DNA of 64,000 nt. Origin: Gammaproteobacteria bacterium (GTDB taxonomy: Bacteria > Pseudomonadota > Gammaproteobacteria > JAUZRS01). The notes below the pieces were generated by a model. That model was not told where the DNA came from. It saw nothing but the letters and a program-made list of their open reading frames with translations, and did not search any database. Every line of letters starts with the position of its first letter. Position 1 is the first letter of the stretch. The stretch is taken from contig JAUZSP010000008.1 in assembly GCA_030949385.1 (NCBI GenBank), positions 124,001 through 188,000 of the forward strand, written 5' to 3'. The position numbers and the translations under genes are program-made. Shown here one piece after another: positions 26,141-63,531 of this stretch.

Positions 26141-26551
26141 TTGAATTTGTTCTTAATCGGATTATCATTGCCGCCCATGAAAATATGGATCAAACAGGTT
26201 TTAGGTTTTGTGTTGGTATTACAGCTGGTGCTGTTGCCGCATCAGGGTGCCTTTGCAAATTTGTTTGAGCTGCCTTCAGCTGCGATGAGCATGGAGCAGA
26301 TGCAGCGTATTGATGTGGCTGCCAAGGATGCAGGCATGATGAACGCAATGGATTGTATGCAAGAGCATAATATGAGCGGCGGCGATTGTACGGATCACAA
26401 TTGCCCTTCATGCCAATGTGCTTCTTGTCTGTTGTTGCCTCTGTTTCAACCTCAAGTACATCTTTATAATTCCGTTCTTGCGGCTCGGTTTATTCTGCAC
26501 GATTTTTCTTCCCTTGCACTGGAGGGGCTCTATCGTCCTCCTCGGCTTTAG
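26141..26551 (+). CDS. Cys/Met-rich exported protein of the copper cluster
   Basis: A TTG start at 26141 has AAGGA well placed before it; an ATG at 26177 is an alternative. A signal peptide (VLGFVLVLQLVLLPHQGAFA) is followed by many potential copper ligands: MSMEQMQRI, GMMNAMDCMQEHNM and DHNCPSCQCASC. The C-terminus ends in YRPPRL, as in CopL/DUF2946-type small copper-associated proteins. It lies directly upstream of copA on the same strand. A role in copper sensing or binding is inferred from ligands and context. Confidence 0.65.
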   Translation: MNLFLIGLSLPPMKIWIKQVLGFVLVLQLVLLPHQGAFANLFELPSAAMSMEQMQRIDVAAKDAGMMNAMDCMQEHNMSGGDCTDHNCPSCQCASCLLLPLFQPQVHLYNSVLAARFILHDFSSLALEGLYRPPRL

Positions 26552-26650: not shown

Positions 26651-28531
26651 ATGAAATACCCTCAATCGACCTCCTCAGCGGATGTCTCTTTATCACGTCG
26701 CCGTTTTGTCAAAGGTTTGGCTTTGGGCGGGGCTGCCGCTGGCTTGGCTTTGAACTCCGGTTCACTGTTGGCTTCGTTAAGCAAAAAACAAGGCACACAG
26801 GTGCTCAGTGGAACCGATTTTGAGCTGAACATCTCCGAACAAGCGGTGAATTTTACCGGCACTGAGCGGATGGCTACGACGGTCAACGGCTCGTTACCCG
26901 CGCCTATTTTGCGCTGGAAAGAGGGTGAGACGGTAACTCTTAATGTTACCAATCATCTGGCTGAAAGCAGTTCAATCCATTGGCATGGGCTGATTTTGCC
27001 CAGTGGCATGGACGGTGTGCCAGGGATCTCCAATGGCTTTTCTGGTATTCCTGCGGGCGAGACCTTTACCTACCGTTTTCCGGTGAAGCAGAGCGGTACC
27101 TATTGGTATCACAGCCATTCGGGGTTTCAGGAGCAGACGGGTTTGTACGGCTCCATTGTGATTGATCCCAAAGAGCCAGAGCCGTTTGAGTACGATCGTG
27201 ATTATGTGGTGATGCTCTCCGATTGGAGCGATGAAGATCCGCAGTCGATTTACAATAAGCTGAAAAAACTAAGTCACTATTACAACTTTAATGAACGTAC
27301 TCATACCGACTTGATGAAGGACATTAAAGAGAAGGGGCTGGTGGCCACTTGGCGAGATCGCAAAATGTGGAATGAGATGCGTATGAGCCAGCGCGATCTC
27401 TCCGATGTGACCGGCTACACCTACACCTATTTGATGAACGGCGCAGCGCCCAACAGCGGTTGGACGGGGATGTTTAAAAAAGGTGAAAAGGTGCGTTTGC
27501 GTTTTGTGAACGGTTCGGCCATGACCTTCTTTGATCTGCGTATCCCAGGTTTGAAAATGACCGTGGTGGCGGCGGATGGTCAGTATGTGCAGCCGGTGAC
27601 GGTGGATGAGTTTCGCATCGGGGTGGCAGAAACCTACGATGTGATTGTTGAGCCAGAAGACGATCGTGCGTATACCGTGTTTGCGCAGGACATTGCTCGT
27701 TCTGGTTACGCTCGCGGTACCTTGACCCCCGATGTGGCGAAAACCGCTGCGATTCCCGCAATGGATCCGGTGCCTAATTTAAGCCACGGTGATATGGGCA
27801 TGGATATGAGCGCCATGGGGCACGACATGGCTGGTATGGATCACGGTGCAATGTCATCAGGTTCAGCGGCGATGGATCACAGCCAGCATGACATGGGGGC
27901 GATGAAAGGCATGGATCACAGCCAGCATGACATGGGGGCGATGAAGGGCATGGATCACAGCGCCATGGGGCACGAAATGCCCATGAAGGCCAACCCTTCT
28001 GATTTCAGCAACAAACCAATTAAACACGCTGAGACTGAATTTGGCCCGCATGTGGACGCTCGTGCCAATGGACCTCAATATCGTCTTGATGATCCGGGGG
28101 TGGGGCTGCGAAACAACGGACGGCGCGTATTGAGTTACGCCGATCTGCGAAATTTATACCCGACAAACAAAGAGCCAGAGGTGACACGGGAGCTGGAACT
28201 GCACCTGACTGGCAATATGGGACGCTACATGTGGTCGATTAATGGGATCAAATTTGCCGATGCGGAACCCTTGCAGTGGAAACTGGGTGAGCGCATTCGC
28301 ATCACGTTTGTCAATGACACCATGATGAATCACCCCATGCATCTGCACGGTTTGTGGAGTGATTTGGAGACCGGCGATAATAACTACTTGCCCCGAAAAC
28401 ACACGGTGATTGTGCAGCCAGGAGCGCGCATCAGTTATCGCGTGACGGTGGATGCGGAAGGCGGCTGGGCGTATCACTGCCATCTGCTTTATCACATGTT
28501 GGGTATGTTCCGTACGGTTGTGGTCAGTTAA
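26651..28531 (+). CDS. copA: Copper resistance multicopper oxidase CopA
   Basis: The start at 26651 has AAGGAA upstream. A twin-arginine signal (LSRRRFVKGLALGGAAAGLA) exports the folded enzyme to the periplasm, where it oxidises Cu(I). The copper motifs are SSIHWHGLILP, YWYHSHSGFQEQTGLYG, HPMHLHG and AYHCHLLYHMLGMFR. A Met/His-rich segment (residues about 380-450) holds two exact tandem copies of MDHSQHDMGAMKG plus MGHDMAGMDHGAM, as in plasmid CopA proteins. The product has 626 residues. copB follows with 12 bases between genes. Confidence 0.95.
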   Translation: MKYPQSTSSADVSLSRRRFVKGLALGGAAAGLALNSGSLLASLSKKQGTQVLSGTDFELNISEQAVNFTGTERMATTVNGSLPAPILRWKEGETVTLNVTNHLAESSSIHWHGLILPSGMDGVPGISNGFSGIPAGETFTYRFPVKQSGTYWYHSHSGFQEQTGLYGSIVIDPKEPEPFEYDRDYVVMLSDWSDEDPQSIYNKLKKLSHYYNFNERTHTDLMKDIKEKGLVATWRDRKMWNEMRMSQRDLSDVTGYTYTYLMNGAAPNSGWTGMFKKGEKVRLRFVNGSAMTFFDLRIPGLKMTVVAADGQYVQPVTVDEFRIGVAETYDVIVEPEDDRAYTVFAQDIARSGYARGTLTPDVAKTAAIPAMDPVPNLSHGDMGMDMSAMGHDMAGMDHGAMSSGSAAMDHSQHDMGAMKGMDHSQHDMGAMKGMDHSAMGHEMPMKANPSDFSNKPIKHAETEFGPHVDARANGPQYRLDDPGVGLRNNGRRVLSYADLRNLYPTNKEPEVTRELELHLTGNMGRYMWSINGIKFADAEPLQWKLGERIRITFVNDTMMNHPMHLHGLWSDLETGDNNYLPRKHTVIVQPGARISYRVTVDAEGGWAYHCHLLYHMLGMFRTVVVS

Positions 28532-59989: not shown

Positions 59990-60248
59990 CGCATTTTTCT
60001 GTTTTTCATTTGGGGAAGGGGATCTTACCTTGAGAAGCGGGCAGTGAGAAGAGCGAGTATGGTTTTGCCTGAATGATTTCATGATGACGGTGTGCTGAAG
60101 TCGGTCTTGTTGTGCGAGGAAAACCTGTTTTTTTGATCCGCTTCACGTTTGTCTCTTCTGGATGTATTAGAAAAACAGGAATTTCTTATGTTTGTTGGTA
60201 TACTTCTTGGCGATTGTTTCCCTGTTCTACACAAAAATAAGGTGAGTT

Positions 60249-61216
60249 ATGAGTGATAATAATAAAGGTAAACCTGCACCTAAGAAGCAGGAAAAACGTA
60301 CAGTTGCAAAACAGACGGCTAAAAAAAGTCGCGTCTAAAAAAAACCAGCGCCAGCGTGGGCGGTGAAACATTGGTTGCGGATGCACTTGGAGCGATTCAA
60401 GGAACATTCCAAGTCATCCAAAAAGATCTACAGGCACGGGATGGCCAGAATGAGAAGTTATTCCGTGACGTAACGGAATCTCTGAGCAAAGTGAAAGAGC
60501 AAAGTGATGTTCGTTTTGAGTCGCAGCAGAAAGGCTTGGAAAAAACCGTTGATGGTTTGAAAAGCTCAGTGGAAACGCTGCTAAAAGAGTCCCAAGAGAC
60601 GCAGAAAGTACAGAACGAAGGTGTGCGTCATTTTGCTGAGAGTGTTTCCACTTCGATTAACACGCTGAATAAAATTTCAGATGATCATGAGAAGAAACGC
60701 AGTCAATCTTTAGAAGAGTTGGCTAAGGCGTTGCATCAGTCCCGTGAAGATACTCGTCAAGATTATCAGCAACAGTCGAAATTAATTGATCGACAGAATC
60801 AGCAAGCGGCGAAAAAGACAAAATGGTACGGCATTCCAGCGATTGTCATTGGTGTGTTTGGCTTGTTTTATTTGGGCTACACGGTTTATGTGATGAATAA
60901 CGCCATGTTGAGCATGTCCAAAGACATGCACAAAATGGAAAAAACCATGAGCACTATGGCGACGATGGCGGAAAGTGTGAAGCTAATGAGTGGTGATGTT
61001 GCTACGATGAGCCAAAATATGGCACAAATGAACCATTCCGTGATTGCGATGACCCAAGAGGTTAAAACCATGAGCGGCGAAGTGGGCAACATGAGCAAAG
61101 ATACTCGTGAAATGTCTGACAGCACCAAAACCATGAGTCGAGATATGAATCAGATGAATCGTAATATGTCACCGGTGATGAACGGTGTCGGCAGCTTTAT
61201 GCCTTGGGCGTATTGA
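60249..61216 (+). CDS. Met-rich membrane coiled-coil protein, frameshifted near the start
   Basis: The ATG at 60249 begins MSDNNKGKPAPKKQEKRTVA. The frame breaks in the A-rich tract 60320-60350; an indel there joins it to the long frame SVGGETLVADALGAIQGTFQ that runs to 61216. The product has about 322 residues: a basic N-tail, a cytoplasmic coiled coil (residues about 45-185), one membrane helix (YGIPAIVIGVFGLFYLGYTV), and a C-terminal coiled coil of about 110 residues with Met every three to seven positions (MSKDMHKMEKTMSTMATMAE). It ends PWAY. I recognise no family. The Met layout could serve copper binding or a coiled-coil interface. Flanked by a terminator; stands alone. Confidence 0.75.
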
Positions 61217-61241: not shown

Positions 61242-61278
61242 AAAAAAGGCGCTGCTTGAAAAAGCAGCGCCTTTTTTT
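61242..61278. terminator. Bidirectional Rho-independent terminator
   Basis: AAAAAAGGCGCTGCTT / AAGCAGCGCCTTTTTTT forms a strong stem between the convergent Met-rich gene and the flavoprotein gene. Confidence 0.92.
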
Positions 61279-61294
61279 GTGAAGAATTTGAATA

Positions 61295-63452
61295 TTAGCC
61301 CAAACGCCAAGCGTGAAACTTCTCCAACCAATTTAGCACGTTTTCTGGGGCGTGATTTTTTTTCCAAATTCCCGCTGCGTATTTGTTGGCCTCGCTGAGG
61401 GTCGGATAAATATGGATGGTGCCGAGGATTTTATTCAAACCTAAATTGTGTTTCATCGCCAAGACATATTCACTGATTAATTCCCCTGCATGGGTGCCAA
61501 CGATGGTCACGCCCAAGATTTTATCGCTGTTGGGTGAGGTCAGGACTTTGACAAAACCAGACGTTTCGCTGTCGGCAATGGCACGATCCAGATCGTCCAG
61601 TTCATAACGAGTCACCTCATAAGCGATATTCTGCTGTTTTGCCTCCTGTTCATTCAGACCTACCCGAGCGACTTCAGGATCAACAAAGGTCGCCCACGGA
61701 ATGACGCGGTAATCCACCTGAAAGCGTTTAATGCCCGAGAAGAGGCTGTTGACCGCGCTGTACCACGCTTGATGAGCGGCGGTGTGAGTGAACTGATAGG
61801 GGCCAGTACAATCGCCCGCGCAGTAAATGGTCGGGATGTTGGTCTGTAAAAAACCGTTGGTCTTAATGGTGCCGTTGTCAGCCAGTTCGATCTTCAGCTC
61901 GTGCAGGCCAAATCCGTCGGTATTGGCGCTCCTGCCGTAGGCGACTACAATCTGATCAAAGGCAATTTTTACCGTTTTTCCCTCGTGTTGACAGAAGGCG
62001 ATTTTTTCGCCATTTTCTTGGCTAATGCTGTGAATTTGGTGGTTGGTTAATACTCGAATGCCTTCTTGTTTAAATTTCTGCTCCACCAGTTCGGAGACCT
62101 CTGGGTCTTCATTGCGCATCAATCGGGCGCTGCGTTGCACTTGAGTGACCTGGGAGCCGAGGCGAGCAAAGGCTTGACTGAGTTCGCAACTGATGGGGCC
62201 GCCACCTAAAATAAGCAGTCGTTTGGGCAGTTCAGTGATTTTCCACAGCGTGTCGGAGGTTAAATAATCTACTTTACTTAGCCCAGCAATATTGGGTACC
62301 AAGGGGCGTGCGCCCGTGGCAATAATAATATTACGAGCGCTGAAGGTCTTGCCGTTGACTTCGACGGTGTAGGGGGAGCTGATTTTGGCCTCACCTTGTT
62401 TAATCTCAGCGCCAAGGGCTTGGTAGCGTTCGATGGAGTCGTGAGGCTCGATTTTTTTTATAATATTGTGGACGCGCTGCATTACCTCGCTAAATTGAAA
62501 ATCGGTTGCGTGTGGCTTGAGACCAAATTCTTCACCCCGTTTGGCGTAAGAGACCATTTTAGCTGAACGAATCAGTGCTTTGCTTGGCACGCAACCGGTA
62601 TTGAGGCAGTCGCCGCCCATTTTATCTTTTTCGATCAGCAGCACTTTGGCGCGTACCGCACGGGCGATGTAGGTGCTGACCAGACCTGCCGCGCCAGCAC
62701 CGATGACAATCAGGTTGTAGTCGAATTTTTTTGGTTTTGGATAGCTGCGTAACAGGCGTGAGGTTTTCCAGCGATTCAGCAACGTTTTGCTGATAAAGGG
62801 AAACAGCGCCAAGGCAATAAAAGATAACAGCAGTTCGGCGGAGAGAATGTCAGCAGGGTTGTTGATCTGCCCCAGCTGGGTACCGGCGTTCACATAGACG
62901 ATGGTGGCCGGTAACATGCCCAATTGACTGGTGAGGTAGTATTTCCAGCTGGCCATTTTGCTTAGACCCATGACCAAGTTGAGCAGAAAAAAGGGCACCA
63001 GTGGAACGAGGCGCAGCGAGAAGAGGTAAAAAGCACCCTCTTTTTCAATACCTGCATTGATTTTTTTCGCCTGTGTCGGGAAGCGTTTTTCGATGCTGTC
63101 TTGAAACAAAAAACGCGATACCCAAAATGCGCAGGTTGCACCCAGAGGTGCTGGCAAAGGAGATTAAAATGCTGCCGGTGGCAACGCCAAACAGTGCGCC
63201 GCCCATTAAGGTTAAGGGCGTGGCCACAGGCAGAGAGAGGGCGGTGACGGCAACGTAGGTCAGAAAGAAAATGCTTAGGGTCAGGATTTGATGTTGTTGG
63301 TAGTAGTCGGAAAAATGTTGTTGTTGGGTTTTTAAATTTTCTAAATTAAGCACGTTTTGTAGGTCGAAAAAGAAAAAGGCGCTGATTAAAGTCAGTAACA
63401 GCAGCATCAGCAGGGTTTTTTTGATGGATGATTTTTTCGATGTTTCGGGCAT
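61295..63452 (-). CDS. TVP38/TMEM64-type membrane domain fused to FAD-dependent disulfide oxidoreductase, frameshifted
   Basis: The start at 63452 has AAGG upstream. The N-terminal part, of about 230 residues, is a TVP38/DedA-like membrane domain (LPVATPLTLMGGALFGVATG, FSLRLVPLVPFFLLNLVMGL). The C-terminal part is a class I pyridine nucleotide-disulfide oxidoreductase: VIGAGAAGLVSTYIARA, redox pair GGDCLNTGCVPSKAL, ILGGGPISCELSQAFARLG, YCAGDCTG and HIYPTLSEANKYA with the His-Glu pair. The literal frames overlap near 63150; dropping one G from GGG restores SFASTSGATCAFWVSRFL and a 718-residue protein. Such fusions are annotated as mercuric-reductase-like; the electron acceptor is unknown. Confidence 0.9.
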
Positions 63453-63531
63453 GGTTTTGCCTTTTATAAAGGTGATGGTCGGGTATTGCGAGCTTTGATG
63501 CACGTTGCGTGCGAAGGTTCACGCTGGATTT

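Follow-up and report, generated by a model that had tools for sequence, protein, structure and literature searches.

The gene analyzed here lies on the forward strand of the window, a stretch of 64,000 nucleotides of the gammaproteobacterial contig JAUZSP010000008.1, and its features are collected in Table 1. An earlier note on this DNA had treated positions 60249 to 61216 as one open frame, which does not hold, as the frame opened by the ATG at 60249 closes at 60336-60338 and the long ORF beginning with GTG at 60356 uses a different frame. In a sister species of the same genus (G001), which has one A fewer in each of two A-runs, the counterpart of this ATG starts an unbroken ORF of 321 amino acids, and the encoded protein is identical to one from the gammaproteobacterial MAG contig JAUZRS010000226.1. 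The frame of the window gene is thus broken by the two A-run length differences combined. Over the 286 codons shared with G001, dN/dS is 0.053, indicating a coding sequence under selection. The adjacent gene on the opposite strand, which joins a membrane domain to a flavin disulfide reductase, is interrupted by one extra base at 63147, and its counterpart in the sister species is unbroken (718 amino acids), which suggests consensus errors in the window assembly. Since this neighbor is broken in a similar way, the frame break is likely an assembly consensus error, and on the basis of these comparisons the true protein probably starts at ATG 60249 and has about 321 residues. A programmed frameshift was rejected as unneeded, because the sister ORF is unbroken without one. 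That the gene is a decaying pseudogene in this genome, as the two length differences could be taken to mean, is improbable given the low dN/dS downstream of the break and a one-base break in the neighboring gene, the pattern expected from consensus errors.

Table 1. Features of the Met-core gene, its flanks and the copper locus of the window.
Feature	Position	Strand	Basis or remark
Small Met/His/Cys-rich exported protein upstream of CopA	26177-26551	+	
CopA multicopper oxidase, copper resistance	26651-28531	+	TIGR01480, 864 bits; Met/His-rich insert
Shine-Dalgarno-like AGGTGAG upstream of ATG 60249	60240-60246	+	sequence reading
Lys-rich N-terminal tail, predicted cytoplasmic	60249-60338	+	29 codons, then stop; runs on into the remainder in the sister species
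Two A-runs (60321-60327 and 60337-60344)	60321-60344	+	each with one A more than its sister-species counterpart
Long ORF, 286 amino acids, GTG start	60356-61216 (including stop)	+	ORF list, codon comparison
Charged helical part, predicted cytoplasmic	60395-60817	+	hydrophobic periodicity of about 3.6
Single transmembrane helix GIPAIVIGVFGLFYLGYTVYV	60830-60892	+	sequence reading and alignments A1 and A3
Met-core heptad coil, 22 Met, predicted periplasmic	60893-61201	+	Met spacing and core reading
Conserved C-terminal tip SPVMNGVGSFMPWAY, family signature P...MPW/F	61169-61213	+	family alignments
Intrinsic terminator, GGCGCTGCTT/AAGCAGCGCC hairpin followed by T7	61248-61278	+	sequence reading; kept in the sister species
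Membrane domain and flavin disulfide reductase fusion	61295-63503	-	split at 63147

The membrane helix spans approximately residues 159-179 of the 286-residue ORF, and the KK that precedes it predicts an N-in, C-out topology. The long cytoplasmic part proposed by the earlier note corresponds to the long charged helical stretch before this helix. The count of about 30 Met in the last 110 residues was too high; 22 are found in the 108 residues after the helix (binomial P 3.5e-14 against a background of 2.5%). Their spacings are 3, 4 or 7 residues only, and the Met Fourier spectrum peaks at exactly 3.50 residues with a power of 12.8, which was reached by 0 of 1000 shuffles. Over ten successive heptads, one core position reads MMMMMMMMMM and the second VVMVVVTTMM, which bears out the proposal of a single membrane helix adjoining a Met-periodic coiled coil. 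Structure prediction with AlphaFold2 (11 sequences) gave all-helical models at low confidence (mean pLDDT 61, pTM 0.22).

In the curated libraries Pfam and NCBIfam, no model matched the window protein at or above its cut-off, and a profile search of the PDB returned generic coiled coils only. The earlier statement that no family is known, for which a sensitive profile search was the proposed check, therefore stands as far as curated libraries are concerned; however, a large unnamed family exists, which is not described in the papers searched. According to profile matches, the window protein is a member of this widespread Met-core family, here called MPW. It matched profile A1 with an E value of 5.1e-60, the window row itself being part of A1, and the 266-position profile A3 with an E value of 5.4e-69, the sister sequence being part of A3. 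Among 369 genomes of the class, 77 contain the family at E <= 1e-15 and 96 at E <= 1e-3; in a sample of the phylum it was found in 49 of 339 genomes at E <= 1e-10, and almost all of these 49 come from outside the class. Its members share one membrane helix, a Cys-free Met-core coil whose length varies by heptads and a C-terminal P...MPW/F; the window protein has the single helix, the Met heptads and the end SPVMNGVGSFMPWAY.

Three types could be distinguished within the family. The window-type subfamily (profile A3) occurs in about 15 genomes, with named hosts including Thiothrix and Thiotrichales, and carries the motifs VMExAMTSMSxDM past the helix and NVAPAMxGMRxMMPW at the C-terminus. The window protein belongs here by its profile match, Lys-rich N-terminus, predicted cytoplasmic coil and VMxxAMxSMSxDM past the helix. 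A second, sister subfamily is recognized by ARRWExIVYPS...YGFYLIYxLT and the C-terminal end SRPMNFMNSFMPW, and a third type consists of tandem pairs, one of which is encoded in the window's own genome. Three members of the second subfamily (L125 3508-4164, L126 2500-3141 and L144 7109-7738) extend beyond the MPW-like tip with Pro/Tyr/Gly-rich tails that recall globule coat proteins.

Across the 77 members, the periplasmic part contains 14.9% Met, 4.0% Leu and 0.0% Cys, and the N-terminal part before the helix 3.4% Met and 7.1% Leu. Neighboring Met spacings fit heptads in 85% of cases, versus 34% after shuffling. The distance from helix to tip is likewise quantized: in the window-type subfamily it measures 54, 61, 68, 89 or 103 residues (5 mod 7 throughout), 92 or 99 residues (1 mod 7), or, in one pair, 58, and 37 of 41 distances in the second subfamily fall into three residue classes separated by whole heptads or by a stammer or stutter (3 or 4 residues). 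Such distances are what an uninterrupted coiled coil with both ends fixed would give, and they lend support to the mechanical spacer that had been among the functions first proposed.

The same 369 genomes of the class were scored for dsrA with TIGR02064 and for soxB with TIGR04486, taking the 77 genomes with a match at E <= 1e-15 as positive and the other 292 as negative. The dsrA gene was found in 66 of 77 positive versus 52 of 292 negative genomes, and dsrA or soxB in 75 of 77 versus 95 of 292. After collapsing to taxonomic families, all 37 positive families had dsrA or soxB versus 49 of 141 negative ones (P 1e-14), where the total of 178 families is the highest label among the families listed. 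Outside the class, where the association was run as a prediction test, dsrA was present in 21 of 22 family-positive and 0 of 20 negative genomes. The family thus tracks sulfur oxidation and occurs almost only in sulfur-oxidizing bacteria. The 52 dsrA-positive genomes that do not contain it indicate that it is not required for this metabolism.

Among the 15 window-type genomes, dsrA is present in 14, soxB in all 15 and PF17228 sulfur globule proteins (SGPs) in 13, versus 0 of 14 control genomes for the SGPs. SGP genes, sulfur oxidation and the Met-core family may share a lineage history, an effect that the collapse to taxonomic families lessens but does not eliminate. The window's own genome encodes dsrA, soxB and several PF17228 proteins, and its tandem paralogue pair (contig C7 of G000; L049 7120-8243 / L113 120-1243) lies about 10 kb from dsrA. 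In several genomes, family genes and dsrA are several kb apart. A small conserved protein (MYWQE...VDLSFK...ALPWL) also recurs next to dsr genes and close to genes of the second subfamily (L064 12512-13001, L109 7039-7728, L111 7843-8544, L113 9259-9948).

Window-type genes are monocistronic, and a search for common neighbors across the loci of this subfamily found none, so that their link to sulfur globules runs only through the family and co-occurrence. The window gene itself is flanked on one side by what we take to be a DUF2797-like gene and on the other by the flavin disulfide-reductase-like gene. The second subfamily is encoded in an operon that comprises an RND pump with its adaptor, Pro/Met-rich secreted proteins, a DUF4412 protein, a ParA/MinD-like ATPase, a TPR or DUF302 protein and a Dynamin_N GTPase. 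Its genes lie on the same strand every time, its parts vary among genomes, and of the 50 genomes that have second-subfamily loci, 31 show one part or more. The operon includes PF17228 genes scoring above cut-off in three genomes (L063, L114 and L180), and at L180, from outside the class, the gene order SGP, ParA, family member is kept. Varying subsets of the operon were observed across sulfur oxidizers (L060, L061, L063, L114, L116, L126, L180, L186 and L189), and the papers searched do not describe such an operon with ParA and dynamin-like genes. HAE1 (multidrug) models score above CusA (heavy-metal) models for the operon RND proteins, all below cut-offs. Many of these pumps carry a long C-terminal extension that ends near GIRLK/GIRLN (L115, L117, L118, L116 and L126).

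With moderate confidence, we propose that the window protein is an inner-membrane structural anchor in the handling of periplasmic sulfur, possibly of sulfur globules. It would be a single-pass inner-membrane protein with a cytoplasmic N-terminus, whose periplasmic half would oligomerize into a continuous left-handed Met-core coiled coil of about 14 heptads and roughly 15 nm, ending in the conserved hydrophobic P...MPW tip. Such a coil could reach from the membrane towards the sulfur globules or their protein coat and make contact there. On the cytoplasmic side, where sulfur is oxidized by rDsr, the assembly would be held by the coil before the membrane helix and its Lys-rich tail. The rod of the sister subfamily, whose gene neighbors those of globule coat proteins, a ParA-like ATPase and a dynamin-like GTPase, may connect the globule to a positioning machinery. 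Compared with Cys, Met thioethers would be softer and react less with polysulfide, and they would have an affinity for sulfur; we infer that they matter here: a coil core built with Met and never Cys suggests an adaptation to a periplasm containing sulfide, polysulfide and sulfur. A more speculative and unlikely extension would make the family the transmembrane adaptor of an undescribed partition and anchoring system for periplasmic sulfur globules. The Met-core coil would then take hold of the coat or the sulfur and be acted on from across the membrane by the cytoplasmic ParA-like ATPase and the dynamin-like GTPase, and window-type members would use their Lys-rich (nucleoid- or lipid-binding) tail in place of ParA.

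Alternatively, the protein could be a generic envelope spacer or tether of Lpp- or TolA-like logic that sulfur oxidizers happen to keep, Met being an acceptable hydrophobic core residue with no link to sulfur. The change of coil length by whole heptads between fixed ends fits this explanation, as does the sequence similarity, which is weak and limited to generic coiled coils, Lpp and the stalks of trimeric autotransporters among them. We regard it as a lesser but genuine possibility, as it leaves three observations aside: the periplasmic coils are Met-rich, Leu-poor and Cys-free whereas the N-terminal parts of the same proteins use Leu, the family is near-exclusive to Dsr/Sox genomes, and PF17228 genes sit in the sister-subfamily operons.

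Binding of Cu(I) or another soft metal, which had been suggested by the earlier note, or a role as a periplasmic copper-stress protein is very unlikely. The Met-dense C-terminus does offer many MxxM and MxxxM pairs, and the window also contains a copA locus; however, the Met residues sit in the heptad core of the coil, Cys is absent, no copper gene recurs beside family members, the operon RND proteins lean to HAE1 rather than CusA, and the family follows sulfur oxidation. The copper idea thus fails on distribution, gene context and geometry, and in Met placement and gene neighbors the protein is unlike copper-binding Met-rich proteins of the CopA, CusF or SilE type. The copper locus of the window provides a useful contrast to the Met-core protein, since the Met/His segment of CopA (MDHSQHDMGAMKGMDHS) is a true copper segment and unlike the Met-core coil. 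Least likely of all is an oxidant sink, an idea that also goes back to the earlier note and that the data do not require, whose surface Met would be repeatedly oxidized and re-reduced by periplasmic MsrPQ, for although the protein is exported and very high in Met, such a sink would need neither exact core placement nor heptad conservation, which would render oxidation destructive.

For a structural anchor in sulfur handling, judged by published description, the known protein whose working the window protein would most resemble is SgpD (Alvin_2515) of Allochromatium vinosum, a predicted coiled-coil periplasmic protein located on sulfur globules by mCherry fusion, whose gene adjoins that of a hydrophobic/amphiphilic exporter (PMC10386293). 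Both are predicted coiled coils, and the exporter gene beside SgpD parallels the RND gene beside the sister subfamily; however, SgpD has a described cleavable signal peptide, whereas the window protein is anchored by a membrane helix that follows a predicted cytoplasmic part. A search for the SgpD locus, run through photosynthetic genomes and through dsrA genomes that lack the family but have a related RND gene, yielded no candidate; the RND genes of the latter apparently belong to another clade and in several genomes lie beside a LysR-type regulator. The SGPs of the SgpA/SgpB type, which share the sister-subfamily operon, are secreted Gly/Asn/Trp/Tyr-rich coat proteins with no sequence relation to the window protein, which gave no PF17228 match at E <= 1 and whose membrane helix is internal, following a long N-terminal stretch.

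DUF948 (PF06103) and DUF1664 (PF07889) proteins likewise place a coiled coil after a membrane helix, but membership was rejected, as the scores of 24.2 and 22.7 bits lie below the gathering cut-offs of 37.2 and 34.6 and are typical of chance resemblance among coiled coils. No match to PF00015 (MCPsignal) of methyl-accepting chemotaxis proteins was found at E <= 1. McdAB/ParA-type systems position cargo, and the sister-subfamily operon similarly pairs a ParA-like ATPase with a candidate coiled-coil adaptor. Here, however, the adaptor would cross the inner membrane to a presumed periplasmic cargo, and no ParA gene lies near the window-type gene.

The near-exclusive occurrence of the family in sulfur oxidizers, often beside sulfur-globule coat genes, points to a role in the handling of stored sulfur rather than copper. 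To our knowledge, it is poorly understood how cells retain and position sulfur globules, the membrane-less periplasmic stores, and distribute them at division, and by what route the sulfur gets to cytoplasmic rDsr. A conserved unnamed family, together with an operon of SGP, ParA-like, dynamin-like, RND and Met-coil genes, makes globule handling testable, and the family also provides a natural case of Met in place of Leu in the core of a long coiled coil.
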